In this document: positions 17,529 to 31,536 of the stretch, piece after piece
Layout: each line of letters starts with the position of its first letter
Numbering within the stretch: the first letter of the stretch is position 1
Notes under the pieces: model-generated
Told to the model about the DNA's origin: nothing
Databases searched by the model: none
What the model saw: only the letters and a program-made list of their open reading frames with translations
Virus record (IMG/VR): IMGVR_UViG_3300022701_000213
Coordinates: 1 to 32,925 of that record
Origin: a virus
Strand: one strand, 5' to 3'
Length of the DNA stretch: 32,925 nucleotides
Position numbers and translations under genes: made by a program

Positions 17529-17582
17529 GATTTACTCCTTAATCTTCAAAATTAATTAATTATGATCGGCAAATACACATAT

Positions 17583-17655: not shown

Positions 17656-17714
17656 GCCCAAGAGCAGCCTTACTCAATGTCATTTACAAATATATGATAT
17701 AAAAATTTTTACTA

Positions 17715-18470: not shown

Positions 18471-18472
18471 TA

Positions 18473-19353: not shown

Positions 19354-19378
19354 AGGGGGCCTAGCGCCCTCTTTTTTT
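19354..19378 (+). terminator. Terminator after 19076-19351
   Basis: AGGGGGC (19354-19360) pairs with GCGCCCT (19364-19370) with one G-G mismatch around a CTA loop, followed by C and seven T. It separates the 91-aa gene from the operator-controlled operon beginning at 19385. Confidence 0.8.
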
Positions 19379-19384
19379 AACTAA

Positions 19385-19413
19385 TTGACACACTTTTAAT
19401 TATGTGTCATACT
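19385..19413 (+). promoter_or_regulatory. Promoter with embedded TGACAC operator (site 1)
   Basis: TTGACA (19385-19390), a 17-base spacer and CATACT (19408-19413) form a good sigma70 promoter. The 24-bp operator TGACAC-N12-GTGTCA (19386-19409) overlaps the -35 and abuts the -10. Its arms extend to 7 bp (TGACACA/TGTGTCA). It drives the small-protein operon 19468-20954, which ends with the tandem RHH gene. Confidence 0.85.
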
Positions 19414-19467
19414 ATATATGAATATATAAGTTAAATTTTGGTAACCAGGTATATTTTTTGGGGAAAC

Positions 19468-19719
19468 ATGAAAAAATTAATACCATTTCTATTTGTTTTA
19501 TCAATTGGTGCGATGGAAAGGTCACCAGAGTGGACTGATGACGACTTTACAAGAATGCGAGATGCCTACAAGAAGCAAAGAGAAGAAGACCTAAAAGAGG
19601 TGGTGCGCATAACGAGTGAAGTAGAACGTGAATACGATAAACGACTCAGAGCAATACGCGTCTTAAAAAACATATCTAAATCAATAAACGAGAGAAAAGA
19701 AGCCGAAAGTAACGATTGA
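19468..19719 (+). CDS. Small secreted/periplasmic helical protein, 83 aa
   Basis: The start MKKLIPFLFVLSIGAMERSP (19468) gives a typical signal peptide ending near residue 15. I prefer it to the ORF start ten codons upstream, which lacks a ribosome site, whereas GGGGAAAC lies just before this ATG. The mature part is highly charged and helical (a probable coiled coil, ~25-80). This is the first gene of the operator-controlled plus operon. Signal peptides of the form MKKLI...AME are frequent in some intracellular bacterial lineages, a weak hint about the host. Function unknown. Confidence 0.6.
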   Translation: MKKLIPFLFVLSIGAMERSPEWTDDDFTRMRDAYKKQREEDLKEVVRITSEVEREYDKRLRAIRVLKNISKSINERKEAESND

Positions 19720-19721
19720 AC

Positions 19722-19868
19722 ATGGGAGCGTTAATATTTTTATTTATACTTTACCTTATTTTTAGACGAAAAAGAGTTTACCACTGTTGTTGCGAATGCA
19801 ATACAGAAAATAAAGTATGTAAACAAACTATAAAAGACAAATTGTACGATGATTGCAATAAAATATAA
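19722..19868 (+). CDS. Cysteine-rich mini membrane protein, 48 aa
   Basis: A short ORF starting at ATG 19722, two bases after the upstream stop. It is MGALIFLFILYLIFRRKR, that is one short hydrophobic helix and a basic stop-transfer signal, then a cytoplasmic tail with six cysteines (CHCCCEC-like cluster at residues 22-26, plus 33 and 45). The cluster suggests metal binding or disulphides. It sits in frame order within the operon, between the secreted 83-aa protein and the 114-aa gene. No homologue recognised; the tight spacing supports expression, but its small size leaves doubt. Confidence 0.5.
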   Translation: MGALIFLFILYLIFRRKRVYHCCCECNTENKVCKQTIKDKLYDDCNKI

Positions 19869-19879
19869 GAAAGGAACCA

Positions 19880-20224
19880 ATGCAAAATAAAATAAGCCTT
19901 AAAGAATTTAGAAAGAAAGACAAAGAACTTCTTATCTCCTCCAAAAAGATAGATAAGGAAAACGATATCTATGAAGCAACGTTTATCTTTGACAAAAAAG
20001 CCGAGGTCAAACTAAGCAATATACCAGGACAATGGGTAAAAGAAGACGGCAAAGCATATGATCCAAAGAAAGATAAATTAAGCGAAGAAGACCAAGCAAA
20101 CCTGGTAAATAGGCGCATAGACTCATTATTAGCGCAACTACAACAAACCATATTTACTATTGAATTCTATGGTGGATCAATTGAGGGGTTTGTAAGTAAA
20201 AAGGAAGAAGATGGCAAAAAGTAA
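19880..20224 (+). CDS. Unknown soluble protein, 114 aa
   Basis: A charged protein with no membrane segment: MQNKISLKEFRKKDKELLIS, then beta-type IYEATFIFDKKAEVKLSNIP and a helical LVNRRIDSLLAQLQQTIF. Ribosome site AAAGGAACC. It overlaps the next gene by 14 bases, which implies translational coupling. It is in the operator-controlled operon and so probably early. The family is not recognised; possible roles include host take-over or anti-defence, neither shown by the sequence. Confidence 0.6.
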   Translation: MQNKISLKEFRKKDKELLISSKKIDKENDIYEATFIFDKKAEVKLSNIPGQWVKEDGKAYDPKKDKLSEEDQANLVNRRIDSLLAQLQQTIFTIEFYGGSIEGFVSKKEEDGKK

Positions 20225-20528
20225 ATATAAAGGCATACTCGACAGAATAATAAGTAAAGCTGTTATAATGACAAGCCTTACAGACGCCAACAAGAATCTT
20301 GATGTAGGAACAAAACTAATACAAAAAGCAACCTGTTTAGCCATATTAGAACCAGCGTTTAAATATATGGAAAAAAGCAAAGACGAAAACCTACAAAAAG
20401 TGGCTATTGAATACAAGCAAGCCATACAGATCCTAAAAGATGAGGGCGTTATAGAAACCGTAAACAATATAGAAGACTTACTGGATGGACAAAATAATGA
20501 AAATAGTGATGACAAAGCTCAAGGATAA
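20211..20528 (+). CDS. Unknown helical protein, 105 aa
   Basis: Mostly alpha-helical: GILDRIISKAVIMTSLTDAN, then KLIQKATCLAILEPAFKYME and an acidic C-terminal tail (DDKAQG). It overlaps both neighbours, by 14 bases upstream and 32 downstream, giving a chain of coupled genes. It has no recognised domain, signal peptide or membrane segment. Its size and charge would fit a small adaptor or inhibitor, but that is not evidence of function. Confidence 0.6.
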   Translation: MAKSKYKGILDRIISKAVIMTSLTDANKNLDVGTKLIQKATCLAILEPAFKYMEKSKDENLQKVAIEYKQAIQILKDEGVIETVNNIEDLLDGQNNENSDDKAQG

Positions 20529-20664
20529 GTACGAAGAACAGTTTAGGTATATCTTAAAAGCTAAAAGCGTTAAAACTGAATGGCAGCATATACCAAAAGA
20601 CTATGAAATCATGCTTGAAGGACTTGAACTGCTTTATAATAAATACAAAAAAGCAGGTGATTAA
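20497..20664 (+). CDS. Unknown mini protein, 55 aa
   Basis: ATG at 20497 opens a 55-codon frame inside the end of the previous gene, and its TAA shares a base with the ATG of the RHH gene (TAATG at 20662-20666). The protein is helical and charged: MKIVMTKLKDKYEEQFRYIL, then KTEWQHIPKDYEIMLEGLEL. This double coupling makes it a likely real gene. Function unknown; a partner of the RHH protein is possible given the direct coupling. An internal start at residue 5 is also possible. Confidence 0.6.
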   Translation: MKIVMTKLKDKYEEQFRYILKAKSVKTEWQHIPKDYEIMLEGLELLYNKYKKAGD

Positions 20665-20954
20665 TGAAAGTAAAAAGATCTATTAGCTTTACAGATAGAA
20701 GTATTAACCTTCTTAATAAAATACAGAATAAATTAGACGACATGAATACATCAATTATCTTTGAAGCTGCTATAAACAAATTCTACGCCATTGGCAAAGT
20801 AGATACTCCAGAAACAGAGAACGACTCTGATGAAAAAAGAATTACTATATACTTAGACGAAGCAACCAACGCTAAACTAAATGAACTCGCATTTATATAT
20901 AAAATGTCATACAAGGACATATCAAACTTGATCATAGAAAAGATATATGGATAA
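20664..20954 (+). CDS. Tandem ribbon-helix-helix regulator candidate, 96 aa
   Basis: It contains two consecutive RHH-like halves. Residues 2-41 read KVKRSISFTDRSINLLNKIQ, then an ITSxxxEAAINKF-like second helix (STIIFEAA region). Residues 57-96 read EKRITIYLDEATNAKLNELA, then MSYKDISNLIIEKIYG. Each half has the short beta-strand with alternating polar residues and two helices of MetJ/Arc-type dimers. A single chain with two halves could act as an intramolecular dimer. It is last in the operon controlled by operator site 1, so it may regulate its own transcription. Start coupled by TAATG. Confidence 0.65.
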   Translation: MKVKRSISFTDRSINLLNKIQNKLDDMNTSIIFEAAINKFYAIGKVDTPETENDSDEKRITIYLDEATNAKLNELAFIYKMSYKDISNLIIEKIYG

Positions 20955-20955
20955 A

Positions 20956-20974
20956 GGAGGGGTATTACCCCTCC
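20956..20974. terminator. Hairpin between convergent operons
   Basis: GGAGGGG and CCCCTCC (7 bp, TATTA loop) lie directly after the RHH stop codon. On the minus strand it is followed by TTTAT, and on the plus strand there is no T-tract. It probably ends the portal-region minus transcript and may stabilise or stop the plus operon. Confidence 0.65.
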
Positions 20975-20988
20975 CCAAGAAAAGAGTA

Positions 20989-21084
20989 CTACTTACTTCG
21001 ATTACGTTTCTCTTTTTTTCTTTTACCAAACACACGTTCAAATATGCGCTTGGCTATCCCTTTAGGGCGTATAGCAACAGGCAT
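20989..21084 (-). CDS. Tiny basic peptide, 31 aa
   Basis: Its ATG (21084) shares a base with the stop of the upstream gene (TAATG), a sign of translational coupling. The product is strongly basic: MPVAIRPKGIAKRIFERVFG followed by a Lys/Arg-rich tail. It may bind DNA or RNA, or be an amphipathic membrane-active peptide. It lies after the portal and 57-aa genes and before the hairpin at 20956-20974. Too short for homology; the coupling is the main support. Confidence 0.45.
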   Translation of the reverse strand: MPVAIRPKGIAKRIFERVFGKRKKEKRNRSK

Positions 21085-21257
21085 TATTTGCCCTTTTTGC
21101 CTACTTTACCAGCCATTGGAACAACAGCCGAGTAAAACTTTGTAGGCATCTTGTGGCCGGAACCCTTTGACATGTTCCAAAGAGCCATCAAGTCTTTTTT
21201 TGATCCTTCATAGCCAGCAAATGGCTCATAGTACGAAGAATTGTACTTCTTTTTCAT
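21084..21257 (-). CDS. Small basic protein after the portal gene, 57 aa
   Basis: The start MKKKYNSSYYEPFAGYEGSK (21257) has AGGAG eight bases upstream and is preferred to the frame extending to 21293. It continues DLMALWNMSKGSGHKMPTKF and ends GKVGKKGK. Aromatic and glycine residues near the N-terminus and a basic end suggest a minor virion or DNA-associated protein. It follows the portal gene by 82 bases and is coupled to the tiny basic peptide. Family not recognised. Confidence 0.55.
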   Translation of the reverse strand: MKKKYNSSYYEPFAGYEGSKKDLMALWNMSKGSGHKMPTKFYSAVVPMAGKVGKKGK

Positions 21258-21339
21258 AATATAACTCCTATGGTTATTAACGTTAAAACACAAATATCAA
21301 CGGGGCACCACAGGGGCACCCCCATGAAAGGAGAAGCTA

Positions 21340-23463
21340 TCATATTAAACCCTGCTCGTCAGGCTGCATCATTGTTTCCTGGAAAGATTGCTCTAATGGC
21401 GCTTCTGCCTGTGATATAGGATCCAAGCTTTGTATGCCAGATATAAACTGGTCTTCTGGCGATGCAAGGTCAGATGATTTTACATCACTATGCATCTCTT
21501 TACGCTCCTGCTGTATTATACGCATGAGCGCCACGAGTTCGTCTATCTTGTCAGGATCAGATTGCTCTAAGTCCTTAAGCACTTTTATAGCCTCTAAGTC
21601 AGATTTTTGTTCTTGTCTATTGGTATCCATCGCTTCTTTTATCATATCAAATTTATCTTTTTCTGATTCACTATCGCGTTTTCTTGCGTTAGCTATATCA
21701 GCCTGCGCCCGAGCATTCATCATATTCATTGTAGCTTGTTGCTCTTGAGCATTTATTTGAGCTTGCTGCTCTTGTATTTGTTGTGCTTGTTGCTTCTGCT
21801 CATTTATCGCATTAATAAGCTCATCTTTATTTTGCAAACTAGCTGCCTTAATAATAGACGCATCAGGTATTTCAATACCCTTGTCTCTAAGATATATAAG
21901 ACGTAGAAATTCTTCTTGACGTTGCGTAGCAGTATCAAAGCCTTCTTCGATAGATATTTTATACTTCGCAAATACCTTGTCATAGAATTCCTGCACTGGC
22001 TCTTCATCTAGAATCCGCATCACCTTAGCAGGTGTATAATTATTTTGTATAATCTGAACCATAGTTGCTCCAAGGTTCTGCAAAGAATTATCAAGCTGAT
22101 CGAATAATGTCTGCAATGTTACAAGACCTTGACCTTGGCGGAGCTTAGCCAATATAGCTGCCTTATCGTCTTCAGCCATACCCATAAGCTCTTCATTAGC
22201 ACCCGACACATACATTAAATTTTTCTCGTGAACCTCATTAAGTCTGAAGTGAGACTCAGGAATATCTTGTGGTGCCATAGTAATAAAATCGCCCATATCG
22301 GCACCTTTTTTAAGCCTAATCATTTTACCGTCAAATGGATTTAACGGCTCTTGAGGGTCAACAAGGGAGTCTTCCTTGTATATATAGCCAACATTGGCAC
22401 GAGCCTCCAAAGAGTTTTGCTCTAATATAATGCGTCGGTTATACAAGAACTGAGAATCACGCATAGCACGCACAACGCCCTGAATACGCAAAGAAAAATC
22501 ATTAAGGTTAGGATCAAAATAACCAAAAACAGGTACGAACGGATAATCGTCTATACCAAGCGGGTTCTCACCATTATACACAACATGACCATTAACAAGG
22601 ATCGCCAACTTAACAGTAGGAATTTCATCTCTTTGCACTTCAACATCAGGATATTGAGCTAACTGCTCGCGTAGTTCCGCCTCTGTACCACGCCACTCCA
22701 ACTTATCCTCTGTTTGCTTATCTATAAGTAATACGCGCTTTCTATAGTCACGATAATAGTACTCATCATAAGCTAACAAGTCTTTCCTAAAACGGGATGC
22801 TTCAGGCATATAGTTGAACTTGTCATCTTTGTAGTTACCAGAGAACGAATCTATTTCGTCTGCCTTATCCGGAACTAACCTTTTGCACGTTTCTTTGGCT
22901 AAAAAGGAACGCTTTAATATTCCATTACAATCAGATAAATCTTTTTTTCTAAAATAGGGGTCTATAAAGAAACTGTTATACGCACAGTTTTCTATACGTA
23001 TGTCCCCAGAAACTGGGTCATCAGAATAATCTACATAGATCTCTAAAAGGTTAAGGCCTGTTACCACAGCCCCTTCATACGCTTCAGATATAATAGAATA
23101 CCCGTCTGCATTTCTTAAAATAGCAGACATTAACTTTGTATATTGGTCAGCACCTTGTTGATGTCGAAGTTCAACAGGCTTAACTATTATTGTCTTTCTG
23201 TTTGCTCGCTGGTAGCCAACAATTAAATTTGTAACCGGTCTTATACGGTTAACATAAAAGTTCTTTCTCGTCTTTAAAGGAATATTATAATACTCGCTCA
23301 CTAATATCTGATCACCAGCATTAAAGCGAGCATCTATATTAGCCTCATTGTGAAACGCCTGATTCACCAATAAGGCTTCATTATAGAAGGTCTCCGCCTG
23401 CTGTTTTATCTCAGCGTAGTCCTCCGTATATGGAATATTTTGTTCCATTGGATATAAAGCCAT
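21340..23463 (-). CDS. Portal protein, P22-like, 707 aa
   Basis: It forms the dodecameric DNA-entry ring. The N-terminal part has QAETFYNEALLVNQAFHNEA then NIDARFNAGDQ, FYVNRIRPVTNLIVGYQRAN and VTGLNLLEIYVDYSDD, the order seen in P22-like portals. Next come DPYFRKKDLSDCNGILKRSF and FVPVFGYFD, then the stem and wing region. From ~560 to 650 a Gln/Ala/Lys-rich coiled coil (QQAQINAQEQQATMNMMNAR) corresponds to the C-terminal barrel of P22-type portals. Length is near that of P22 (about 725 aa). It is transcribed separately from TerL because of the terminator at 23521-23560. Ribosome site AGGAG. Confidence 0.87.
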   Translation of the reverse strand: MALYPMEQNIPYTEDYAEIKQQAETFYNEALLVNQAFHNEANIDARFNAGDQILVSEYYNIPLKTRKNFYVNRIRPVTNLIVGYQRANRKTIIVKPVELRHQQGADQYTKLMSAILRNADGYSIISEAYEGAVVTGLNLLEIYVDYSDDPVSGDIRIENCAYNSFFIDPYFRKKDLSDCNGILKRSFLAKETCKRLVPDKADEIDSFSGNYKDDKFNYMPEASRFRKDLLAYDEYYYRDYRKRVLLIDKQTEDKLEWRGTEAELREQLAQYPDVEVQRDEIPTVKLAILVNGHVVYNGENPLGIDDYPFVPVFGYFDPNLNDFSLRIQGVVRAMRDSQFLYNRRIILEQNSLEARANVGYIYKEDSLVDPQEPLNPFDGKMIRLKKGADMGDFITMAPQDIPESHFRLNEVHEKNLMYVSGANEELMGMAEDDKAAILAKLRQGQGLVTLQTLFDQLDNSLQNLGATMVQIIQNNYTPAKVMRILDEEPVQEFYDKVFAKYKISIEEGFDTATQRQEEFLRLIYLRDKGIEIPDASIIKAASLQNKDELINAINEQKQQAQQIQEQQAQINAQEQQATMNMMNARAQADIANARKRDSESEKDKFDMIKEAMDTNRQEQKSDLEAIKVLKDLEQSDPDKIDELVALMRIIQQERKEMHSDVKSSDLASPEDQFISGIQSLDPISQAEAPLEQSFQETMMQPDEQGLI

Positions 23464-23520
23464 TTAACCACTCCTATCTTAGAAATTTCTATAAATTCAG
23501 TATAAGCGTAAAACAATAAA

Positions 23521-23560
23521 AAAATTAAAATAAAAAACGGGTGGCGATTAAACCACCCGA
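23521..23560 (-). terminator. Terminator after TerL
   Basis: CGGGTGG (23539-23545) pairs with CCACCCG (23554-23560) around an eight-base loop. On the minus strand this is followed by TTTTTTATTTTAATTTTTTT. It ends the packaging operon 40 bases beyond the terL stop. The portal gene must therefore start from its own AT-rich promoter in 23464-23520. Confidence 0.92.
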
Positions 23561-23600
23561 CATCTAGATAACAATAAGGCTGAAAAAGGAGATAAACAAC

Positions 23601-25961
23601 TTATCGAGATCTAAATACTGGAGAGAAATATGAGTCTTTTCCGTAACGTAATTTTTGACGCTTTAAATTAAACTCTTCAGTCGACATGACAGAGGACGAC
23701 ATTTTAGATAACGACATACACATATAACGAAACGCATCACAATAGTCGTTTGCCCATGTCTCAGTATCTGTAGGCATAAACCTGTCGGTCTTATCGTTTT
23801 TCTTCTGCGCGTAAGACTCTAACGCGCTTACTAATTTTCTACATTTGTTTTCATCTATAAATATACGAGCAAAGGTATTTCGTACTACCTCTATGCCGTC
23901 AGTCAACCTTCCACGATCTAAACGAGTAACCTTAATGCCCAACTGCTCAAGCATCTGGATACGAGTTAGTCCATCATTTAAACTATGCTTTTTAGAGTCA
24001 TGGGGCACAAAGTGTTCTCCGTAATTGTAGTTTTTCTCTCTAGCAAACATATTAAGCGTGCTAACATAGTGCGCTAGCTTCTCGTTTCGCTTGTGATACA
24101 TGTCTATAACACATACTTTTTGCTCTATTATCTGATAAAAGAGTATAACCGTTGGACATGCCCATCCAAGATCCCATGCCGTGTGGACGTTATGTGTAGG
24201 GTCATGCGGCACGAACCCAATACGTCCCTCAGAGTAAGCCTGCTGTATATATTTAGAATAGAAGTACCCGTCACCTGCAATCTCGAACGAACAGAAATAC
24301 TCCTGCATAAAGAGCTCTTCTGACATTCGAGCTCGTTCTCTTGCAAGCCCTACGGGATCCATGTGCTGCGTATCGTTTACCGTTAACAGCTTTGTATACC
24401 AAGTTGGATCTTCACCGCTCCGAGCATACTTATAGAGATCATAAAATCTGTTATGTCCATAAGGAGTAGATATAAACATTACCCAGCCTTTATTTGCAGT
24501 AAGGACCGGAGCTATAACACCATCATATGCATGAGGGTGTTTAGTTTGTGCAAATTCTGAAAAGACAACACCAACGGGATTGGATCCGCGCAATGAGTTG
24601 CCAGACCAACACTCTCTACCATTACGACGAACCTTTATTACACCAGAAGGAACCGTCACACAATATACTTTACCGCTATAATGCTTCTTGCTTATATAAC
24701 TTTTCTTTGTAGAACTAAAATATTTAAACTTGGATGTTCTAACTCTAATTTGATATAGATCGTGCTTATATGTTATCTGTCTTCCTCGTATAATACCGCC
24801 AGGAGAGCCAGCCTTTGCTTTAATATAAACATAACCACAATACCCTATCTTTAATATAAGCTCTTGAACATCATCAATTAGTTGCTTTGAGCATGAATAG
24901 TAAAGCGTTGATCCATTTTTGCGTACTGTCCCGTCACCGAGAACAAGCCAATCAAATAATGTTTTCAAGTAGCTTTTGTCGAGCTCTAAAACAAAACGAG
25001 GAATATATCTTTGACACTGAAGGCCAAACTGAGAAAAATAAGAGTACAAATCTTTACTATAAAAGTAATAAGCATCTGCCCTCTTTTTATAATTTAAACC
25101 ACAGCGGTCTAAAAGCTCCTCTATCTTACTCCTAACATGCGGTTTTTTTTGCGCAATACAAACACTATAGCCCTTCTTGCCTCGATAAGAAGACCCCTCA
25201 GACAAATAAATACCAAGAAGAGCCATAAAATCTTCCATCGATATTGTTATATTTGTTCCCGGAAAGGTAAAAGTTTTTCTTTTTTTACCATGCCAGTCTG
25301 ATCTTGCAGGAATAGAATAGCGTGCAATTGTCGGGTCTGATATACGCTTAAACTTATAAACACCCTTACCAGACCGAACAAAAAACCTGTGATTTGGCGT
25401 AACTAACATATCTATAGCATCGTTTTTTACGGAGTACATATCGCCACTGTAATCTTGCTCGATATAATCTGTAGGTTTTTCATAAACCATACAACCATCT
25501 TTAAGTGTCGCAACCTTTTCTTTACCGGTTAATCCACTAAAAAGTAGCCACCCACGGTCCGTTAATATCTCAGTCTTATTGTCATAGCAATCGGCCCGAT
25601 CGCAGCCATTAAACTCTATAATGCTACCGTTAACGAGCGTTATCTTCATTTGAGCTTCATTTTTTTTAGCTATAAGCTCTTTCGGTATAAAGTCTAAAAA
25701 TTTCTCGCCAGTTATAAGTATCGAATCCCAAACGGCCTTACGGCACTGATCTTTTTCTGGATAGAGATAATAATAAACACCAACGCGCTTAAACGCTTGA
25801 CGAAGCATAATATTAAGGGCAACAACATCCTTGCCTGCTCGGCGAGGAAATATCGCAATAAACTTACGCTTGTCTGAGTGCTCTATAGCATTTATCAAGT
25901 CACGCTGATACCAGCGCGGCTTAAACTTACTTACTAGAACTGTCTTTGTTGACTCGTCCAC
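23601..25961 (-). CDS. terL: Terminase large subunit with intein, 786 aa precursor (455 aa mature)
   Basis: The DNA-packaging ATPase and nuclease. The N-extein has Walker A FPRRAGKD at 38-45; the C-extein has the Walker B-like VVFSEFAQ, motif III FISTPYGHN and the RNase H-like nuclease residues in HTAWDLGWACP, FVPHDSKKHS and DYCDAFRYM near the end. Residues 125-455 are an in-frame intein; removal joins GCDRAD to SLRGSNPVG, restoring a normal terminase. Extein length (455) is typical. The start codon is GTG with AAGG upstream, one base after the previous gene. It is the last gene of the packaging operon driven from operator site 2 (27915-27943). Confidence 0.93.
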   Translation of the reverse strand: MDESTKTVLVSKFKPRWYQRDLINAIEHSDKRKFIAIFPRRAGKDVVALNIMLRQAFKRVGVYYYLYPEKDQCRKAVWDSILITGEKFLDFIPKELIAKKNEAQMKITLVNGSIIEFNGCDRADCYDNKTEILTDRGWLLFSGLTGKEKVATLKDGCMVYEKPTDYIEQDYSGDMYSVKNDAIDMLVTPNHRFFVRSGKGVYKFKRISDPTIARYSIPARSDWHGKKRKTFTFPGTNITISMEDFMALLGIYLSEGSSYRGKKGYSVCIAQKKPHVRSKIEELLDRCGLNYKKRADAYYFYSKDLYSYFSQFGLQCQRYIPRFVLELDKSYLKTLFDWLVLGDGTVRKNGSTLYYSCSKQLIDDVQELILKIGYCGYVYIKAKAGSPGGIIRGRQITYKHDLYQIRVRTSKFKYFSSTKKSYISKKHYSGKVYCVTVPSGVIKVRRNGRECWSGNSLRGSNPVGVVFSEFAQTKHPHAYDGVIAPVLTANKGWVMFISTPYGHNRFYDLYKYARSGEDPTWYTKLLTVNDTQHMDPVGLARERARMSEELFMQEYFCSFEIAGDGYFYSKYIQQAYSEGRIGFVPHDPTHNVHTAWDLGWACPTVILFYQIIEQKVCVIDMYHKRNEKLAHYVSTLNMFAREKNYNYGEHFVPHDSKKHSLNDGLTRIQMLEQLGIKVTRLDRGRLTDGIEVVRNTFARIFIDENKCRKLVSALESYAQKKNDKTDRFMPTDTETWANDYCDAFRYMCMSLSKMSSSVMSTEEFNLKRQKLRYGKDSYFSPVFRSR
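24597..25589 (-). mobile_element. Intein with LAGLIDADG homing endonuclease in TerL, 331 aa
   Basis: The intein runs from Cys125 (CYDNKTEILTDRGWLLFSG, block A) to Asn455, followed by Ser456. Block B is LVTPNHRFF (Thr188, His191). The C-terminal blocks are KVYCVTVPSG and RRNGRECWSGN before S. The penultimate residue is Gly rather than the usual His. Between them is a two-motif LAGLIDADG endonuclease: ALLGIYLSEGS (~247-257) and LFDWLVLGDGT (~335-345), each with the acidic catalytic residue. The insertion point, before the conserved SLRG/Walker B region, is in the ATPase active centre, as usual for inteins. Confidence 0.95.
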
Positions 25962-25962
25962 T

Positions 25963-26208
25963 CTATACCTTAACTTCTTTTTTTCTAGTTACTCTTCGAG
26001 GTCTATAAACTTTTTTTTCTAGCTCAGATATTTTGTGCTCATTTCTTAAAATGCTGTTGTAGCTACTATAAGTGCGGGCCTGAAGATCATGAATCTTCTC
26101 TTCCATATCATCTATCGTACGTGTTGCCTTGTAGTATAGTATAGCGGTCACAAATATATCAAGACCTACAAGCGCCATAAAAAAATAAGGAATCAAAAAA
26201 ATAAACAT
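25963..26208 (-). CDS. Membrane-anchored coiled-coil protein, 81 aa
   Basis: Residues 2-24 (FIFLIPYFFMALVGLDIFVT) are one N-terminal membrane helix. A coiled coil (TRTIDDMEEKIHDLQARTYS, then EHKISELEKKVYRPRR) and a basic tail follow. This topology is that of inner-membrane spanins (Rz type), which link membranes at lysis, so a lysis role is possible. No matching outer-membrane lipoprotein gene was found, and the gene lies next to terL rather than a lysin. Coupled to terL (one-base gap). Confidence 0.55.
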   Translation of the reverse strand: MFIFLIPYFFMALVGLDIFVTAILYYKATRTIDDMEEKIHDLQARTYSSYNSILRNEHKISELEKKVYRPRRVTRKKEVKV

Positions 26209-26218
26209 AACACCCTTT

Positions 26219-26413
26219 CTATTTAGATATGAATAATACTTCGATTATAGATTTCCAAAACGACGTAGCCATATAGATGATTGGTATCCCGAACACAACA
26301 AACCCTATTGTATACATTGGAACGCCGAAGCAACCCACAAGAAACCAGAGCACAAAAGCTGCAATAGTCATAGCCATAGCATAAATATAAAAATTACGTT
26401 CTTCTTCACACAT
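26219..26413 (-). CDS. Two-helix membrane protein, 64 aa
   Basis: I set the start at MCEEERNFYIYAMAM (26413), preceded by GGAGATGTA, rather than the ORF start at 26515 which lacks a ribosome site. Two hydrophobic helices (AMTIAAFVLWFLVGCFG and YTIGFVVFGIPIIYMA) are joined by a short turn, with a charged N-terminus. That is the size and layout of class II holins. It is ten bases from the spanin-like gene. With no endolysin in the genome the holin idea remains a guess. It overlaps the preceding frame by eight bases. Confidence 0.6.
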   Translation of the reverse strand: MCEEERNFYIYAMAMTIAAFVLWFLVGCFGVPMYTIGFVVFGIPIIYMATSFWKSIIEVLFISK

Positions 26414-26651
26414 TACATCTCCTTTTGATTTCACGTCCAACCCGGACGACCATCCGTCCGAACCAATTGAACGCACGCCCACAGGGACGCAGGACCAACT
26501 TAATATCTTGGCCAAGTATACTTGGATGACACTTTTTTAAAAGCGTGTCACCTAAGTTATGATGGCATGATAAAGAAAAGCAGCTTGCTATTAGGGGTGT
26601 AGAGGCGATCTTAATAGTCAGACGTGGCACTGCATCACTGTAGGCAAACAT
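26406..26651 (-). CDS. Possible small protein over a palindrome-rich region, 81 aa
   Basis: An 81-codon frame starting MFAYSDAVPRLTIKIASTPL with a very good ribosome site (AAGGAG, seven bases before ATG). The composition is unlike its neighbours (Arg, Cys and Pro-rich, few Lys/Asn), and the DNA under it contains a TGACAC operator (26527-26550), the overlapping palindromes at 26507-26525 and alternative hairpins at 26434-26460. Either the gene is real and overlaps regulatory DNA, or it is a chance frame over a leader region controlling the membrane genes and terL. Function unknown. Confidence 0.4.
   Translation of the reverse strand: MFAYSDAVPRLTIKIASTPLIASCFSLSCHHNLGDTLLKKCHPSILGQDIKLVLRPCGRAFNWFGRMVVRVGREIKRRCNV
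26434..26460. promoter_or_regulatory. Alternative hairpins upstream of the membrane gene
   Basis: Three half-sites CGTCC (26434-26438), GGACG (26444-26448) and CGTCC (26455-26459) allow two mutually exclusive stems; the second extends to CGGACG/CGTCCG (26443-26460). The arrangement lies 20-45 bases before the start of 26219-26413 and resembles an attenuator or translation switch. Confidence 0.4.
26507..26525. promoter_or_regulatory. Overlapping palindromes next to operator site 5
   Basis: CTTGGCCAAG (26507-26516) overlaps CCAAGTATACTTGG (26512-26525, perfect 14-bp palindrome). Together they give three CTTGG/CCAAG half-sites, directly adjoining the TGACAC operator that starts at 26527. It may be a binding array for a second regulator. 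Confidence 0.5.
26527..26550. promoter_or_regulatory. TGACAC operator without obvious promoter (site 5)
   Basis: TGACAC-N12-GTGTCA, 24 bp, same size as the promoter-linked copies. The hexamers at the usual promoter positions are poor here (GTGACA and CATCCA on the minus strand). It lies inside the packaging operon and inside the questionable 81-aa frame. It may act as a roadblock or a decoy site. Confidence 0.7.
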
Positions 26652-26675
26652 TTAAAACTCCTTAAAGTGGGATAA

Positions 26676-26957
26676 TTAAGCTTTTTTATCCCTATTGATT
26701 ATCCTTCTTAGTAGCCGCTTAACTTTGTCGCATACTCCCTTTATGAACGGCTTTAAGTAATCCTGTATCTCTTTCTCAAACAGCTTCTGTATAACCATGG
26801 TACCCAAGGCGCCTGTCACCATCCCAGCGGCCCCCCTGTGTCGACGTACTGTGTCTTGCGCCTTGTGATATACCATAGTAATGCCATTAGACTTACGCAC
26901 TACTGGGATAGCATAAGTAGCCGTAAGCAAACAAAAGCATAATATTAATTTTTTCAT
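26676..26957 (-). CDS. Small exported protein, 93 aa
   Basis: A signal peptide MKKLILCFCLLTATYA with likely cleavage near residue 16 is followed by a basic mature part with a Gly/Ala hydrophobic stretch (GAAGMVTGALGTMVIQKLF, ~42-60) and Lys/Arg-rich helices. It may be membrane-active. It belongs to the packaging operon, between terS and the membrane genes. No homologue recognised; the signal peptide resembles that of the 83-aa plus-strand protein at 19468. Confidence 0.6.
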   Translation of the reverse strand: MKKLILCFCLLTATYAIPVVRKSNGITMVYHKAQDTVRRHRGAAGMVTGALGTMVIQKLFEKEIQDYLKPFIKGVCDKVKRLLRRIINRDKKA

Positions 26958-26967
26958 TCGTTATCCT

Positions 26968-27054
26968 TTATCGCTTGCCATAAGCAGGCAGCGCCTTAAT
27001 TATCCGTTGTTTTATTGAAATATATATAAGATCGTCTCTTTCTTTTTTAGTCAT
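26968..27054 (-). CDS. Mini protein after terS, 28 aa
   Basis: The frame MTKKERDDLIYISIKQRIIK... starts within the last codons of the terS candidate (ATGA-type overlap of eight bases) with AGGAAG just upstream. It is charged and helical and ends PAYGKR. The longer frame up to 27195 lies inside terS and is a shadow. Coupling and ribosome site support it; its size makes the call uncertain. Confidence 0.4.
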   Translation of the reverse strand: MTKKERDDLIYISIKQRIIKALPAYGKR

Positions 27055-27523
27055 CCTTCTTCCTATAGTCTTCGAACACGACCTTGATGTCTCGTCGGTC
27101 TTCGTTATCAAGTTTAAGTTTGGCTTTATCTTTATTGGCTTTGTCCCACTCTTCGCTGTAGAGGTGTGTTGTATGGTTAAGCATCTTAGGATCATGTTCG
27201 TACATAGTATTTTCTCGTCTAAGGCCTATAAGCTCTCTACAAAAGTGGTGTCGTTTATTAAGGTATTGGGATCGCTTTAACCATTTGCAGTATACATCTT
27301 TGGTTACGCCTCTAGCTATATAGTATTCGGTGATTGACATACACTTTGCATTGTTAGCCACATAGGTTACCATTTGATCGGCGAATACTTCGAGCATCCG
27401 ATCTGTCATATAATGCCCTGAAATAAACAGTTCTTCTGGTTTTAGGTCTTCAAATGTAGTAGCCGCATATTGCTTTCTATGGGGTGCTATTTTATATTTT
27501 TTTGTTTGCTCTTTTTTTGGCAT
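27047..27523 (-). CDS. Terminase small subunit candidate, 158 aa
   Basis: A DNA-recognition subunit by pattern and place. Residues ~62-85 (MSITEYYIARGVTKDVYCKW) form a helix-turn-helix like those of phage small terminases. A long helix with LIGLRRENTMYEHDPKML and EEWDKANKDKAKLK follows, and the C-terminus is DIKVVFEDYRKKDD; the IxVVxE beta-strand near the end is common in this family. It is first but one in the operon that ends with terL, although three or four small genes lie between. Ribosome site AAAAGGAGAGT. It overlaps the previous gene by 32 bases. Confidence 0.65.
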   Translation of the reverse strand: MPKKEQTKKYKIAPHRKQYAATTFEDLKPEELFISGHYMTDRMLEVFADQMVTYVANNAKCMSITEYYIARGVTKDVYCKWLKRSQYLNKRHHFCRELIGLRRENTMYEHDPKMLNHTTHLYSEEWDKANKDKAKLKLDNEDRRDIKVVFEDYRKKDD

Positions 27524-27887
27524 ACTCTCCTTTTGGTTTATAAGGTTTGATTATAATTTCGGTATGTGGTTGGTTGCTATATTCTTTAAGTATGCTGATA
27601 TTATAGAGGTTTTCGTGTTTATATACTTTTCCTTTTAGCATTTTATTGGCGAATCTGAGCATTTCGATGGCTGATGGTTCTGACTTGTTGGTATCTTTGA
27701 TATAGAATTTGAATATAGCTTGTATTGGTTGTTTGATTAGTTTTTCGTTTTCGAATTGGTTTTCTATGCAGACGTAGAATCTGATTTTACCTTCTCTGTA
27801 TGTATCTAGCGGTTGTCGTCCTTCTGCTTCTGATTTATATGTTTTAGAAGGTTCACCAGGTATTATAAATACATACTTGCTTTTCAC
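27492..27887 (-). CDS. Possible degenerate RusA-fold protein, 131 aa
   Basis: The N-terminus (YVFIIPGEPSKTYKSEAEGR) and the later beta-strands (QAIFKFYIKDTN, then LYNISILKEYSNQPHTEIII) follow the layout of RusA-type Holliday-junction resolvases, which start with IPGxPxxK and end with a PxTxIxI strand. The conserved aspartates of the active site (DxDN and the later DD) are not visible; the corresponding segment reads PSAIEMLRFANKMLKG. It could be an inactive relative or an unrelated small protein. The start is GTG with AAAGGA upstream. First gene behind promoter site 2. Confidence 0.4.
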   Translation of the reverse strand: MKSKYVFIIPGEPSKTYKSEAEGRQPLDTYREGKIRFYVCIENQFENEKLIKQPIQAIFKFYIKDTNKSEPSAIEMLRFANKMLKGKVYKHENLYNISILKEYSNQPHTEIIIKPYKPKGEYAKKRANKKI

Positions 27888-27914
27888 ATCTTTATCCTTT
27901 CATACTACTTTACC

Positions 27915-27943
27915 ATTATGACACACTTTTATATCCGTGTCAA
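27915..27943 (-). promoter_or_regulatory. Promoter with embedded TGACAC operator (site 2), packaging operon
   Basis: On the minus strand TTGACA (27943-27938), exactly 17 bases, then CATAAT (27920-27915). The 24-bp operator TGACAC-N12-GTGTCA occupies 27919-27942. It lies about 30 bases ahead of the GTG start at 27887 and should drive the operon through terL. A 26-base core is identical to site 3 at 29024-29049. Confidence 0.88.
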
Positions 27944-27957
27944 GTTATTTAAATATA

Positions 27958-28191
27958 CTAAGAATGGTACGTATTACAATCGCAGCTACTCCCCATGCAA
28001 AGACACACATAAGTATTCCATCTATCATCATCTCTTGTCCCGTTTATTTGTGTCCATATATCGTGTGTATTTGTTCTGTCTGTAAGTATCCATATTTCAT
28101 TGTTCTTGATGTCAAGCCACACCGATTCTATGGAGTATTCTGGTCTGATCTTGGTTTTTAATTGTTTTTGCTTACCGTCTACCTTTGTCAT
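27958..28191 (-). CDS. Unknown protein, 77 aa
   Basis: A soluble, charged protein: MTKVDGKQKQLKTKIRPEYS, then IESVWLDIKNNEIWILTDRT and NTYVCLCMGSSCDCNTYHS with five cysteines near the C-terminus. The Cys cluster may bind metal. It starts two bases after the upstream gene's stop and ends 15 bases before operator site 2, so it is last in the unit driven from site 3. No family recognised. Confidence 0.5.
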   Translation of the reverse strand: MTKVDGKQKQLKTKIRPEYSIESVWLDIKNNEIWILTDRTNTHDIWTQINGTRDDDRWNTYVCLCMGSSCDCNTYHS

Positions 28192-28193
28192 TC

Positions 28194-28412
28194 TTAATCA
28201 ACTTCTATTTTGTTTGCGGCTTCTTTTATATCGGCCTCGAGGTTTAGATACTCTGTTGTAAGCGTCTTTAAAACGCCCCTTATACCACTAGTTGGATCGC
28301 CTTTGCTGACAGTTTCTGCATATATTTCCTCGTACTTGATTAGTCTACTGCATGTTCTGTCATATGCTTCTATTAGGTTTTTTATGTGTAAAATGTGTGG
28401 ATTATGAGTCAT
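28194..28412 (-). CDS. Unknown helical protein, 72 aa
   Basis: Two predicted amphipathic helices: HILHIKNLIEAYDRTCSRLI and LKTLTTEYLNLEADIKEAAN, joined by a Gly/Ser/Pro turn. No membrane segment. Ribosome site AAAGGATAAAA. It belongs to the early unit started by the RHH gene. It could be a helical-hairpin dimer. Not recognised. Confidence 0.55.
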   Translation of the reverse strand: MTHNPHILHIKNLIEAYDRTCSRLIKYEEIYAETVSKGDPTSGIRGVLKTLTTEYLNLEADIKEAANKIEVD

Positions 28413-28424
28413 TTTTATCCTTTA

Positions 28425-28751
28425 TTACGCCGTGCCAGTATCCTGGAATTTTTTATAGACAGGGCACCATATATACACCCTTTTATAGCGGCCCTCTATG
28501 TTTAATATCAGAACAATATCATCTGGATGTTTCCAGTATATACTATTAAACATCCCTATAAAATCATCTTCGTCTAGATAGTTTAAGCCTATTGCATAAA
28601 TCCGGATATCTATTCCATGCCCAGGCATTTCGTGTTCATACTCTATAAGGCTGAGATAATCATTTTTTTTAAGCCATGCATTAAGAGCGTTAATATTGTT
28701 TTTGTCCTCTATAAGGGACGTGGTTAGCACAACGCTTGTAACTAAGGCCAT
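28425..28751 (-). CDS. Unknown protein, 108 aa
   Basis: A mixed alpha/beta protein: MALVTSVVLTTSLIEDKNNI, then LNAWLKKNDYLSLIEYEHEM, YLDEDDFIGMFNSIYWKHPD and RVYIWCPVYKKFQDTGTA. The alternation of hydrophobic strands and helices suggests a compact folded domain. Ribosome site GGGAAGAG. It is in the unit behind promoter site 3. No homologue recognised and no catalytic motif visible. Confidence 0.55.
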   Translation of the reverse strand: MALVTSVVLTTSLIEDKNNINALNAWLKKNDYLSLIEYEHEMPGHGIDIRIYAIGLNYLDEDDFIGMFNSIYWKHPDDIVLILNIEGRYKRVYIWCPVYKKFQDTGTA

Positions 28752-28821
28752 ATTTTTGCTCTTCCCTTGTGTCTATTTTTTATTTCGTTTGTTTTCATGA
28801 TACCTTTATACATAGGTGCCT

Positions 28822-28986
28822 TCAAGTGGCCTGTTTATCCTTTTTGTATTGGTCTATCATTTCTTTTATCTTGTCTATAACCATATACGACATAGACCTA
28901 TATTTTTCTTTAGACATTTCTTTAAATTCCTTGTGGATATCTGCGGGCATTCGTATAACCATTTGTTTGATAACTGGCCTTTTCAT
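28822..28986 (-). CDS. Arc-like ribbon-helix-helix repressor, 54 aa
   Basis: A short gene: MKRPVIKQMVIRMPADIHKE, then KEMSKEKYRSMSYMVIDKIK, with a Lys/Asp-rich end. This is the classical RHH layout: a beta-strand QMVIRMP with exposed alternating residues that enter the DNA major groove, helix A (ADIHKEFKEMSKE), a turn, then RSMSYMVIDKIKEMI. Arc of P22 (53 aa) is the same size. It lies 35 bases behind promoter/operator site 3, so it probably represses itself, and it is the best candidate to bind all TGACAC-N12-GTGTCA sites. Ribosome site AAAGGA. Confidence 0.85.
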   Translation of the reverse strand: MKRPVIKQMVIRMPADIHKEFKEMSKEKYRSMSYMVIDKIKEMIDQYKKDKQAT

Positions 28987-29020
28987 ATTTTTCCTTTCTA
29001 TAGCGTTATATTATAATGCT

Positions 29021-29049
29021 ATCATGACACACTTTTATATCCGTGTCAA
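29021..29049 (-). promoter_or_regulatory. Promoter with embedded TGACAC operator (site 3), RHH gene
   Basis: On the minus strand TTGACA (29049-29044), 17 bases, then CATGAT (29026-29021); the -10 is weaker than at other sites. The operator is 29025-29048. It shares 26 identical bases with site 2. It sits between the 232-aa gene's stop and the RHH gene, which fits autoregulation. Confidence 0.85.
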
Positions 29050-29054
29050 CGTTT

Positions 29055-29753
29055 TTACTTGTTTTTATAGGTTTCATAGGAGTCTATGTCTCCGGTTTTG
29101 AGGTAATACACTATAAAGTTATAAACTGGCGGACAAAGATTTTTCCACATTACATATATTTTTTTCAGGCCTTCTATATTTACCTTACCGGTACGCAATG
29201 CTTTTTTAAGTTCTTCAACGGGATCTATAATCTCCCTGCGTTGGTCATCTTGCGGCATACGTTCTGGTTCATCGTCTGGCTTTTTACATGGATTAGTATC
29301 TTTATCTATTGCTTGATCTGGGTATTTATATTCTTTTCCATGTTTCCAATAAGTGAGACCTTGATTGAACGTTGGTCCACGCTGTGCTCTTGATGCCCTA
29401 CTAGCTGTACCTGTGTTTTGATATGTCTTTGGTTTATTTTTATACTCTTTGATAACCTCCTTGACTATATCGCCATCGAAGGTTTCTCCGTCTTCAGTTA
29501 CCATACCGTTTTCATCAAATGGCATATCATCTAGTTTTGACCAGTCTGGCTTTTCGTTGAGTTCCCGTACCATATGACAACAAATACCATAAAAAATGTT
29601 ATACGGGGACTCTGGTGGTTCATTATAGTCCCGCTCAAACCTTTTGTTTGCGCAGTATATTGTCTTGTCTGTAAAAGGTGTTAGTCTACGCTTTCCTGCA
29701 ACGGTTAACTTTAAGTATCTTAACTTATATTCGATTGCACTTGATATACGCAT
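29055..29753 (-). CDS. Unknown early-region protein, 232 aa
   Basis: N-terminal half: SSAIEYKLRYLKLTVAGKRR, then IYCANKRFERDYNEPPESPY and NIFYGICCHMVRELNEKPDW. Middle: a low-complexity linker (TASRASRAQRGPTFNQG). C-terminus: IDPVEELKKALRTGKVNIEG and KKIYVMWKNLCPPVYNFIVY, with helical character. Preceded by a TATAAT -10 (29797-29792) but no clear -35. It could be a replication initiator or DNA-binding protein, given the origin-like region just upstream, but no motif shows this. Not recognised. Confidence 0.6.
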   Translation of the reverse strand: MRISSAIEYKLRYLKLTVAGKRRLTPFTDKTIYCANKRFERDYNEPPESPYNIFYGICCHMVRELNEKPDWSKLDDMPFDENGMVTEDGETFDGDIVKEVIKEYKNKPKTYQNTGTASRASRAQRGPTFNQGLTYWKHGKEYKYPDQAIDKDTNPCKKPDDEPERMPQDDQRREIIDPVEELKKALRTGKVNIEGLKKIYVMWKNLCPPVYNFIVYYLKTGDIDSYETYKNK

Positions 29754-29821
29754 TACTACTCTCTCCTTTATACTTCCCTTTTAAGTAAATCATTATATCA
29801 TACCTTTTTTTGCTTTCACTC

Positions 29822-29851
29822 TTGATATAAATGATATCACATATATATATT
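29822..29851 (+). promoter_or_regulatory. Candidate promoter for the noncoding RNA
   Basis: TTGATA (29822-29827), 18 bases, TATATT (29846-29851). Transcription would start near 29858, about 20 bases before the left arm of the long inverted repeat. The AT-rich setting makes chance matches likely, so confidence is limited. Confidence 0.4.
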
Positions 29852-29857
29852 TATTAC

Positions 29858-30208
29858 AACTTTTTTATAAATTATTTTTAAGCCAGCACGTTAACCGTCC
29901 CCACTCAAAGCAAAAGCAGGCTACATATAATTTCTATGGAAAAAGATATCTATTTAAATGTGTATATTGGTTTACAAAAAGAAAACGGTAAAACCGTATT
30001 TTTATTTCTATTATAAAAGATGCGGTATTCTGGATACACACCGCCGAGAGCGGTGCATTAGCATAGCTTCGAAGTCTTTTAGTATGATAATACTTATGTG
30101 TTACGCAAGTAACTTTGATATCCTTACTGGGGTCAAGTAGCTTATCACTTACATTTGCATCGTCATTGTGCTTTGAATGGGGTCGGATAACGTGCTGGCT
30201 TTTTTTTT
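29858..30208 (+). ncRNA. Candidate structured noncoding RNA closed by a 32-bp inverted repeat
   Basis: 29880-29911 pairs with 30170-30201 at 29 of 32 positions (mismatches at 29894, 29898 and 29904), and nine T follow the right arm (30200-30208), as in an intrinsic terminator with a 258-nt 'loop'. The loop contains ACGGT-AAA-ACCGT (29985-29997), CACCGC-CGAGA-GCGGTG (30039-30055), AGTAT-GATA-ATACT (30081-30094) and GTTAC-GCAA-GTAAC (30100-30113, a GNRA-type loop). No tRNA or known RNA family was recognised. A small mobile element with terminal inverted repeats is the main alternative. Confidence 0.5.
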
Positions 30209-30284
30209 ATATATATATATAGAGAGAGATTAGGATGAAAAGCAGAAGCAACGAAGAAATAAACTCACTCTAGAAAACAAAAAC

Positions 30285-30332
30285 ACTTACTCGCTACGCT
30301 CGTAAGTATGACACGTACTATCGAGCTGTCAA
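30285..30332 (-). promoter_or_regulatory. Degenerate operator promoter (site 6) followed by a hairpin
   Basis: On the minus strand TTGACA (30332-30327), 16 bases, CATACT (30310-30305), with arms TGACA/TGTCA around it (30309-30331). Directly beyond, ACTTAC...GTAAGT (30285-30307) forms a hairpin, followed on the minus strand by GTTTTTGTTTT. A transcript from here would run antisense to the candidate noncoding RNA and towards the 232-aa gene, and might be stopped early by the hairpin. Confidence 0.5.
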
Positions 30333-30370
30333 GTAAAAAGTGAAAATAGTCTAATAGACATAACACGTAA

Positions 30371-30396
30371 ACCCTAGTTGTAATTAAATATAGGGT
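30371..30396. promoter_or_regulatory. Inverted repeat ACCCTA-N14-TAGGGT
   Basis: Two 6-bp arms separated by 14 AT-rich bases, ending 12 bases before the promoter at 30408. Spacing and total length (26 bp) are operator-like, but the sequence differs from the TGACAC family. It is a possible site for another regulator or an initiator protein. Confidence 0.4.
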
Positions 30397-30407
30397 ATCA
30401 CCAACAC

Positions 30408-30436
30408 TTGACTATGTTAAAATGGTGTCTTAAAAT
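30408..30436 (+). promoter_or_regulatory. Plus-strand promoter, operator-like variant
   Basis: TTGACT (30408-30413), 17 bases, TAAAAT (30431-30436). The spacer ends GGTGTCT, so the whole looks like a diverged member of the TTGACA-operator-CATANT promoters with weakened arms. No gene follows on this strand; the next structure is the hairpin at 30458-30486. Confidence 0.5.
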
Positions 30437-30457
30437 AGAGAGGCTTCATTACTTTTA

Positions 30458-30486
30458 GAGGTAGGTCACCGCGCAGTGCCTACCTC
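30458..30486 (+). ncRNA. Strong hairpin, possible end of a short RNA
   Basis: GAGGTAGG and CCTACCTC (8 bp) enclose a bulged T and a further CAC/GTG stem. With the promoter at 30408 this would give an RNA of roughly 45-55 nt starting near 30443. The sequence after it (GTCTTATATATA) is only a weak terminator tail. It lies downstream of ruvC on the opposite strand, so it could instead protect the 3' end of the ruvC message. Confidence 0.4.
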
Positions 30487-30501
30487 GTCTTATATATAAA
30501 C

Positions 30502-30517
30502 GCCGACAACTTGTCGA
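30502..30517. promoter_or_regulatory. Short palindrome GCCGACAA-C-TTGTCGA (copy 2)
   Basis: Second copy of the motif at 153-168, here 15 bases beyond the ruvC stop. It overlaps a second palindrome, TTGTCGACAA (30511-30520). Same open question as copy 1: protein-binding, recombination or transcription-end site. Confidence 0.4.
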
Positions 30518-30532
30518 CAATCGATATTACTC

Positions 30533-31036
30533 TTATATAAAACTGTCCTGCCTATCTACCGTAGGTGGAGCCCCACCGAACAACACACATAACCCTAAAG
30601 CTAGAGCGTCTGTAACATCGTCCCGTAACCCATCCTCTAACTCAACAAAATACTTATGTACAACCAACGACACATCCTCCTTAGATGCACTACCAGTACC
30701 CGCAACCGATAACTTAACATCCCGAGGAGTAACCTCATGTAAGGCAAGCCCATACCTACCACTCAATAAATATAGAACGCCACGTAAATAACTCAACTTA
30801 CCATAGGTAGATACAGACCTGCCCATAAAGGGAGTCTCAATAGCTAGATCCGTTATAGGATAATCATCCAGTAAATCTACAAAGAAATCATAAAACCTAA
30901 CAACCCTATCTCTTAAAGGATCCTTACAACCTAACACTAAACACCCATAACCCAAAAGATCAGTATGCTTGCCATCACGCCGCATAACAGACCAGCCAGC
31001 ATAACGAGTACCAGGATCAATAGCCAATAACACCAC
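30533..31036 (-). CDS. ruvC: RuvC-like Holliday-junction resolvase, 167 aa
   Basis: It cleaves four-way junctions in recombining or concatemeric DNA before packaging. The RNase H-fold acidic residues are present: Asp7 in LAIDPGTRYAGW, Glu67 in LAIETPFMG, and Asp140 and Asp143 in RDDVTDALALG, the same order and spacing as bacterial RuvC (D7, E66, D138, D141). SxxTYGKLSYLRGVLY and HEVTPRDVKLSVAGTGSASK also match the family. Length is standard. The start codon is GTG after AAGGAGAG. It is co-transcribed with ssb (18-base gap). Phage RuvC proteins often act on branched replication intermediates. Confidence 0.93.
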   Translation of the reverse strand: MVLLAIDPGTRYAGWSVMRRDGKHTDLLGYGCLVLGCKDPLRDRVVRFYDFFVDLLDDYPITDLAIETPFMGRSVSTYGKLSYLRGVLYLLSGRYGLALHEVTPRDVKLSVAGTGSASKEDVSLVVHKYFVELEDGLRDDVTDALALGLCVLFGGAPPTVDRQDSFI

Positions 31037-31054
31037 ACTACTCTCCTTTTTAAC

Positions 31055-31435
31055 CTAAAACGGTAACACACCCGCCGCCTCAGCAACTACATCAGTGTCC
31101 TTAGCGTCATTATCGCTTTTAGACATAAAAACAACACGGTCAGCAACCACAATATGCCTACTCCTCCTACTACCATCTTTGTCTTCCCAAGACTCATACT
31201 TAAGCCTCCCCTCAACTAACACCGAAGAACCCATCTCCAAATAACGCTTACAAGCCGTACCCTGACTACCCCACACATCAACATCTATAAAACAAACCTC
31301 ACTGCGATCCTTGTCCTTAAAGGTGCGGTTAACCGCTAACCCCAACCGACACACACACTTCGTATCATTTATCTCCCTATAGTCAGGATCACGAGTCAAA
31401 TTACCTACCAATACAACCCTATTAAAATTAGCCAT
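31055..31435 (-). CDS. ssb: Single-stranded DNA-binding protein, 126 aa
   Basis: An OB-fold SSB: MANFNRVVLVGNLTRDPDYR, then GLAVNRTFKDKDRSEVCFID, WGSQGTACKRYLEMGSSVLV and EGRLKYESWEDKDGSRRSR. It protects ssDNA and recruits partners. The C-terminal tail is short, and the tip is AAGVLPF, not the acidic DDIPF of bacterial SSB, although the final PF is kept; contacts with host proteins may be altered. Divergent from the recombination operon at 31584. Its promoter must be in 31436-31500, where only weak matches were seen. Confidence 0.95.
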   Translation of the reverse strand: MANFNRVVLVGNLTRDPDYREINDTKCVCRLGLAVNRTFKDKDRSEVCFIDVDVWGSQGTACKRYLEMGSSVLVEGRLKYESWEDKDGSRRSRHIVVADRVVFMSKSDNDAKDTDVVAEAAGVLPF

Positions 31436-31507
31436 AAGAAAAACTCCCTTATATTAAAGACTTTAAACATCAACACATATTAAAATAAAAATAAATTAAA
31501 AAAAAGC

Positions 31508-31536
31508 TTGACACGTTTTTAAAAGTGTGTCATACT
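31508..31536 (+). promoter_or_regulatory. Promoter with embedded TGACAC operator (site 4), recombination operon
   Basis: TTGACA (31508-31513), 17 bases, CATACT (31531-31536); operator 31509-31532. It lies 48 bases before the ATG of the zinc-ribbon gene and controls it and the ERF gene. Being between divergent units, a bound repressor might also affect ssb-ruvC. Confidence 0.88.

Follow-up and report, generated by a model that had tools for sequence, protein, structure and literature searches.

The DNA analysed here is IMG/VR record IMGVR_UViG_3300022701_000213, a stretch of 32,925 nt from an uncultured bacterial virus (the whole stretch is called the window below), in which a 24-bp inverted repeat, TGACAC-N12-GTGTCA, is found at several promoters. 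The gene content is that of a podovirus-like phage, with a portal, a terminase, a major head protein, SSB, RuvC and an Erf-like protein. Exact copies of the dyad start at 19386, 26527, 27919, 29025 and 31509 and occur nowhere else in the window, in full agreement with the five repeats of constant length listed in an initial annotation of the sequence. By chance, 0.00096 such copies would be expected under a first-order Markov model of the window. No match to the TGACAC and GTGTCA arms was found in the window at any other spacing from 0 to 30, and a scan of the window in which three mismatches were allowed gave a count not above chance. Attention was therefore restricted to the exact sites and to one degenerate copy at 30309.

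Four of the exact copies lie within promoters. Dyad A (19386–19409, plus strand) is part of the promoter TTGACA-17-CATACT (19385–19413), which reads into a small-protein operon at 19438–21135. An intrinsic-terminator-like hairpin (19354–19379, plus strand) just upstream separates this promoter from the gene at 19076–19351 (+). The dyad at 27919–27942 (minus strand) is contained in TTGACA-17-CATAAT (27943–27915), upstream of the gene at 27492–27887 (−), and that at 29025–29048 (minus strand) in TTGACA-17-CATGAT (29049–29021), directly upstream of a gene for a 54-residue Arc-like ribbon-helix-helix (RHH) protein. Dyad E (31509–31532, plus strand) lies within TTGACA-17-CATACT (31508–31536), upstream of the gene at 31584–32234 (+) and of the Erf-like gene at 32244–32888 (+). 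The remaining exact copy (26527–26550), which has no assigned strand, is located between the genes at 26676–26957 (−) and 26219–26515 (−). The degenerate copy that the initial annotation placed at 30309 is real, but is shortened to TGACA-N13-TGTCA (30309–30331, minus strand) and coincides with a promoter of spacer 16, TTGACA-16-CATACT (30332–30305), whose position is orthologous to the third early promoter of related phages. A second proposed variant, at 30408, was dropped as merely promoter-like; it has neither the TG nor the dyad, and the next plus-strand gene begins only at 31584. The absence of the element from the head and tail genes was borne out, with no site in 188–19009. Between the third early promoter and its first gene the window has a gene-poor stretch with several hairpins (29753–30533), which is absent in the relatives, where this promoter stands ∼ 36–60 bp ahead of the first gene.

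When the whole contig was scanned with sigma70 weights, the promoters at 27919 (−), 31509 (+), 19386 (+) and 29025 (−) took ranks 1 to 4 in that order, and the shortened dyad promoter at 30309 (−) took rank 5. All five have TTGACA, a TG before the −10 element and a C at −12, and all five show the features of an extended −10 sigma70 promoter (TTGACA, a spacer of 16–18, TGn, and a −10 element with A at its second and T at its sixth position). The site at 26527 does not. The TTGACA hexamer, spacer of 17 and CATACT, CATAAT or CATGAT element that had been attributed to the first four sites in map order thus hold for 19386, 27919, 29025 and 31509, but not for 26527. Within these promoters the left arm of the dyad consists of five bases of TTGACA plus a C, and the right arm of the G at −16, the TG of the extended −10 element, a T, and C and A at −12 and −11. 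The dyads therefore reach from −35 to −11, so that none of them is part of the transcript of its own promoter; no Rfam match to a structured RNA was found at the sites. The 24-bp site can be divided into two inverted 12-bp half-sites, the best of which reads TGACACACTTTT. At 19386 this extended half-site faces the −35 element, whereas at 27919, 29025 and 31509 it is the half nearer the −10 element. The sequences 27918–27943 and 29024–29049 agree at all 26 positions, the entire spacer among them, and have unlike flanks, which could reflect either a very short duplication or a strong constraint on the spacer.

The strongest rival explanation for this arrangement is that the sites are nothing other than strong extended −10 sigma70 promoters, in which the dyad arises without a repressor because TTGACA and TGTYATAAT are partly complementary. 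Extended −10 promoters with a TRTG motif are an established class, and the −17TRTG−14 form known from Gram-positive bacteria covers much of the right arm (PMC2613000). Moreover, at the same loci the relatives combine an imperfect dyad with TTGACA, a spacer of 17 and TRTGnTATAAT, and promoter A always has a T at position 18, although this T has no symmetric partner. As a control, 86 promoters of the form TTGACA-N14-TGTYATAAT in other phage contigs were taken from among the matches listed, which are not a random sample. The full dyad is present in 1 of these 86 listed promoters, compared with 4 of 4 in the window. Among the same listed controls, C is found at −12 in 5 of 86 and directly after TTGACA in 8 of 86. 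Although a C at −12 does not follow the promoter consensus, it is present in all five early promoters of the window and in none of 18 promoters in the relatives (Fisher 3e-5). Since a background of 1 in 86 is so far from the window, even a count of three out of three, with 27919 and 29025 taken as a single duplication, would stand out. The switching of half-site TGACACACTTTT between the −35 and −10 sides, which promoter function would not demand, also argues for an operator, and 26527 is a perfect dyad with a fitting inner consensus and no promoter. Promoter consensus fails to account for the dyad, and the operator interpretation outlasts this rival, which is unlikely, if not to be neglected.

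Two wider scans were also carried out. That for TTGACAC-N12-GTGTCATAMT returned 94 stretches in unrelated contigs, and the idea of a widespread operator class was rejected because nearly all of these were single-site matches, some with inner sequences that are hairpins, such as AGACTTCGGTCT. A viral-contig scan for TGACAC-N2-TTTTA-N5-GTGTCA recovered near-identical fragments of the window together with scattered single matches, which were judged to be due to chance. Separately, the unrelated phage contig L084 has three promoters of the form TTGACAC-N12-GTGT[TC]ATAAT (G020: 17530–17558, 22113–22141 and 23364–23392), two of which precede small-terminase-like and capsid-like genes. These may represent an independent case of a promoter-shaped operator. 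In G020 no RHH match was found in the 9 kb examined, and the part read further in search of a regulator contains structural and packaging genes only.

The initial annotation had counted 26527 among the promoter sites and the packaging operon among the operons served. A packaging-operon promoter at 26527 is unsupported, as no promoter was found there in either direction and the best reading is GTGACA-17-CATCCA. The site sits in what is left of a gene of ∼ 129 codons that is intact in the relatives G003, G004 and G005, and one arm, TGACAC, is already present at the equivalent place in G004 and G005. The inner 12 bp match the half-site consensus as well as or better than all but a fraction of 0.0014 of the AT-matched 12-mers of the window (better than 99.86%). 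Because the arms at 26527 are perfect and the inner consensus is maintained without a promoter, the dyad can be separated from promoter function. Next to this dyad, at 26512–26525, stands a perfect 14-bp palindrome, CCAAGTATACTTGG. G003 has the identical palindrome and G004, G005 and L030 have similar ones, which in these relatives may do no more than encode a conserved PSILG-like peptide.

Portal searches identified a set of syntenic relatives, namely G003, G004, G005, G017 (L031/L032), L030 and L017, together with a more distant clade of L033, L034/G012 and L039/G014. G003, G004 and G005 are ∼ 33–35 kb in length and their portals are 57–60% identical to that of the window. Both the recombination operon and the left operon retain their extended −10 promoters in all full-length relatives, and promoters orthologous to that of dyad E are present in G003, G004, G005, G017, G012 and G014. 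Promoter A is kept in the first clade, where it reads TTGACAC-N12-GTG[TC]TA in all six relatives and so contains a relaxed dyad, TGACAC-N12-GTGYTA. In the distant clade promoter A is unlike that of the window (TTGCAT, spacer 18). The C6/G19 pair, which is specific to the dyad, is present at promoter A in 6 of 6 relatives and in 4 of the 86 listed controls (nominal P = 3e-7, uncorrected for shared descent). By this comparison the relaxed dyad is older than the window, and the perfect, multiplied form is limited to the lineage of the window. Two further signals were discarded. At promoters other than A, positions 6 and 19 form suggestive T/A pairs in G012 and G014; by hand count, however, 6 of 10 pairs are complementary against ∼ 4.4 expected, which is not above expectation. 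The C/G pair might have been lost in step with a change at residue 59 of the tandem RHH protein described below (R in the dyad clade; K or M in L033, L034 and L039), but too few lineages are involved.

What, then, might bind the sites? The binder is most probably an RHH protein, and there are two main candidates, one encoded in the operon of dyad A and the other directly behind the 29025 dyad. The first is a 96-residue protein of family A1 (20664–20954, plus strand), with no plus-strand terminator found between dyad A and its gene. Its predicted structure (pLDDT 89.7) contains the strand-helix-helix unit twice in one chain, with strands at residues 3–10 and 57–64 and helices at 11–23, 29–43, 66–78 and 83–95. 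The best structural match is to TraY, chain E of the F-plasmid relaxosome (Z 13.0 over 94 residues, root mean square deviation 2.0, 15% identity), and the next family scores 8.5. The score against Pfam RHH_1 is 15.2 bits, under the cut-off of 20.5. All relatives with sequence across the locus encode this tandem RHH protein. The adjacent A2 gene (20485–20664, plus strand) encodes a 59-residue protein that is RHH-like by sequence pattern alone and has no Pfam match, and is a weaker candidate regulator. The second candidate is the 54-residue Arc-like protein (28822–28986, minus strand), which matches the Arc-like repressors of PHROG 3180 with an E-value of 2.3e-6; its score against Pfam Arc is 16.1 bits, below the cut-off of 20.4, and its single-sequence fold was of low confidence and uninformative. 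No homologue of the 54-residue protein was found in the relatives or in a viral-contig search, and no relative of either RHH protein was found among named phages. That a protein confined to the window matches a perfection of sites confined to the window is a single coincidence and not a correlation. The case for the family-wide tandem RHH protein as the repressor is about evenly balanced, the window-only Arc-like protein could be the repressor with a somewhat lower probability, and the small remainder falls to other binders.

One such possibility is that the dyads are bound by a host regulator, or by a phage DNA-binding protein outside the RHH class, with the phage borrowing or feeding a host circuit. 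The connection between RHH proteins and sites is drawn from gene position, and the three promoters of the same build in G020 occur without an RHH match in the 9 kb examined. Set against this, RHH genes lie directly behind two of the sites, the tandem RHH protein is universal in the family, and the relatives' helix-turn-helix protein of the HTH_36 type has no homologue in the window; this explanation is rather improbable. The HTH_36 protein itself (∼ 275 residues, with a weak RP-C match) is encoded at 18524–19351 (−) in G004 and 26623–27450 (−) in G005; its place is occupied in the window by small unrelated genes and that for the 54-residue RHH protein, and it is possibly a replication initiator that was replaced. 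Finally, a variant host sigma factor favouring C at −12, with the symmetry as a by-product, would fit the C common to all five window promoters and found in no promoter of the relatives, but it leaves the C after TTGACA, the inner half-sites on either side and the promoterless dyad at 26527 unexplained, and is very improbable.

Taken together, the repeats are probably operators of a single phage-encoded repressor that controls the early promoters, forming a putative autoregulated regulon. This interpretation is favoured because five exact dyads are present where about 0.001 would be expected, because they share a single spacing, and because four of them are the best promoters of the contig. 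The sites exist, overlap promoters, are conserved and go beyond what promoter consensus can explain; from this we infer protein binding, repression and its timing as follows. The strong dyad promoters would be transcribed early by the host RNA polymerase. The repressor, itself made from one of the dyad promoters, would then accumulate and bind the two 12-bp half-sites of each dyad, covering the promoter from −35 to −10 and excluding polymerase. This would turn off the repressor's own operon at the same time as those for recombination and those at 27919 and 29025, and the late head and tail genes, which have no site, would stay free of repression. The 26527 site might act as a roadblock or titration site. 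An alternative purpose is lysogenic immunity. Early shut-off is favoured in that seven family records, which may be incomplete, yielded neither a tyrosine nor a serine recombinase.

Several observations weigh against the operator regulon, in addition to the make-up of the control set. The relatives that share promoter A are not phylogenetically independent, and at the recombination promoter just 2 of 6 relatives keep the C6/G19 pair. The sites at 27919 and 29025 may be one duplication, which would leave three independent promoter sites. The equivalent promoters of related phages, to which the initial annotation had looked for a decision, give a mixed answer: the promoters are kept, as is the relaxed dyad at promoter A of one clade and at some of the recombination promoters, and the perfect dyad, as well as any dyad at the third early (left) promoter, is absent. 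The perfect multi-site form is found in one genome and its near-identical fragments, and provides no link by co-occurrence to one regulator. The coherent regulon originally proposed stands as the best reading, with operators overlapping sigma70 promoters, but it has to accommodate both the lack of a promoter at 26527 and the missing perfect dyad in the relatives.

If correct, this would be the first time that regulation has been mapped in this family of uncultured phages, and the map would include defined sites and name two candidate repressors. The relatives would form a natural series from plain promoter through relaxed dyad to perfect dyad, that is, an operator evolving inside a sigma70 promoter from the promoter's own elements. 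A comparison such as that with the 86 listed controls would offer a simple means of separating operators of this kind from ordinary strong promoters in sequence data. A broader and doubtful proposal is that a single-chain tandem RHH protein, conserved in this podovirus-like family, represses all early promoters through a dyad made of sigma70 elements, that one lineage converted every −12 position to C and so gained perfect operators, and that unrelated phages such as G020 converged on the same solution.

Elsewhere in the window, an intein-like insertion is present in the large terminase gene (23601–25961, minus strand) at about residues 124–460; it includes a LAGLIDADG domain (Pfam PF14528, E 1e-10), and terminase alignments to G003 and G004 skip most of it. 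In the search for a host, prokaryote genomes were scanned twice with profiles of the capsid and portal proteins and no relative was found, and named phages gave only distant portal matches (21–27% identity).

The sites are distributed like those of a genome-dispersed phage repressor-operator system, in that several copies are present far above chance and four of the five, plus the degenerate sixth, overlap promoter elements. Dispersed inverted-repeat operators at early promoters are also known from the Streptomyces phage phiC31, a temperate phage whose conserved inverted repeats (CIRs) are bound by a repressor of the helix-turn-helix type. The dispersal is alike, whereas the sequence and length differ and no integrase was found in the seven family records. 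Arc of phage P22 is a small RHH repressor with an operator overlapping a promoter. The 54-residue protein matches Arc-like PHROGs, but the operator sequence differs and P22 has a single regulatory locus. In cluster A mycobacteriophages one repressor (L5 gp71 type) binds asymmetric 13-mers, the stoperators, in promoters and short intergenic spaces (PMC9283540). As there, many identical sites are spread over the genome, some in promoters and some not. The L5-type repressor, however, is a monomer with helix-turn-helix and stoperator domains that acts at > 20 sites per genome oriented with transcription; in the window no such repressor was seen, and the sites are five 24-bp dyads with the stronger half on either side. 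AvtR of the archaeal virus AFV6 is a tandem RHH protein that binds an imperfect inverted repeat and represses its own gene (PMC5569661). It works at archaeal promoters with another motif, and its structural match to the 96-residue protein is lower than that of TraY (Z 7.9 versus 13.0). TraY of the F plasmid is a monomer with the whole fold of an RHH dimer (PMC12117103), and the modelled single-chain tandem RHH fold of the 96-residue protein resembles it. TraY is, however, a plasmid protein of the relaxosome and oriT, and has no sequence match to the 96-residue protein by profile search. Dispersed phage operators are therefore already known, from cluster A mycobacteriophages and phiC31; what sets the present sites apart is that they are built of the promoter's own elements.

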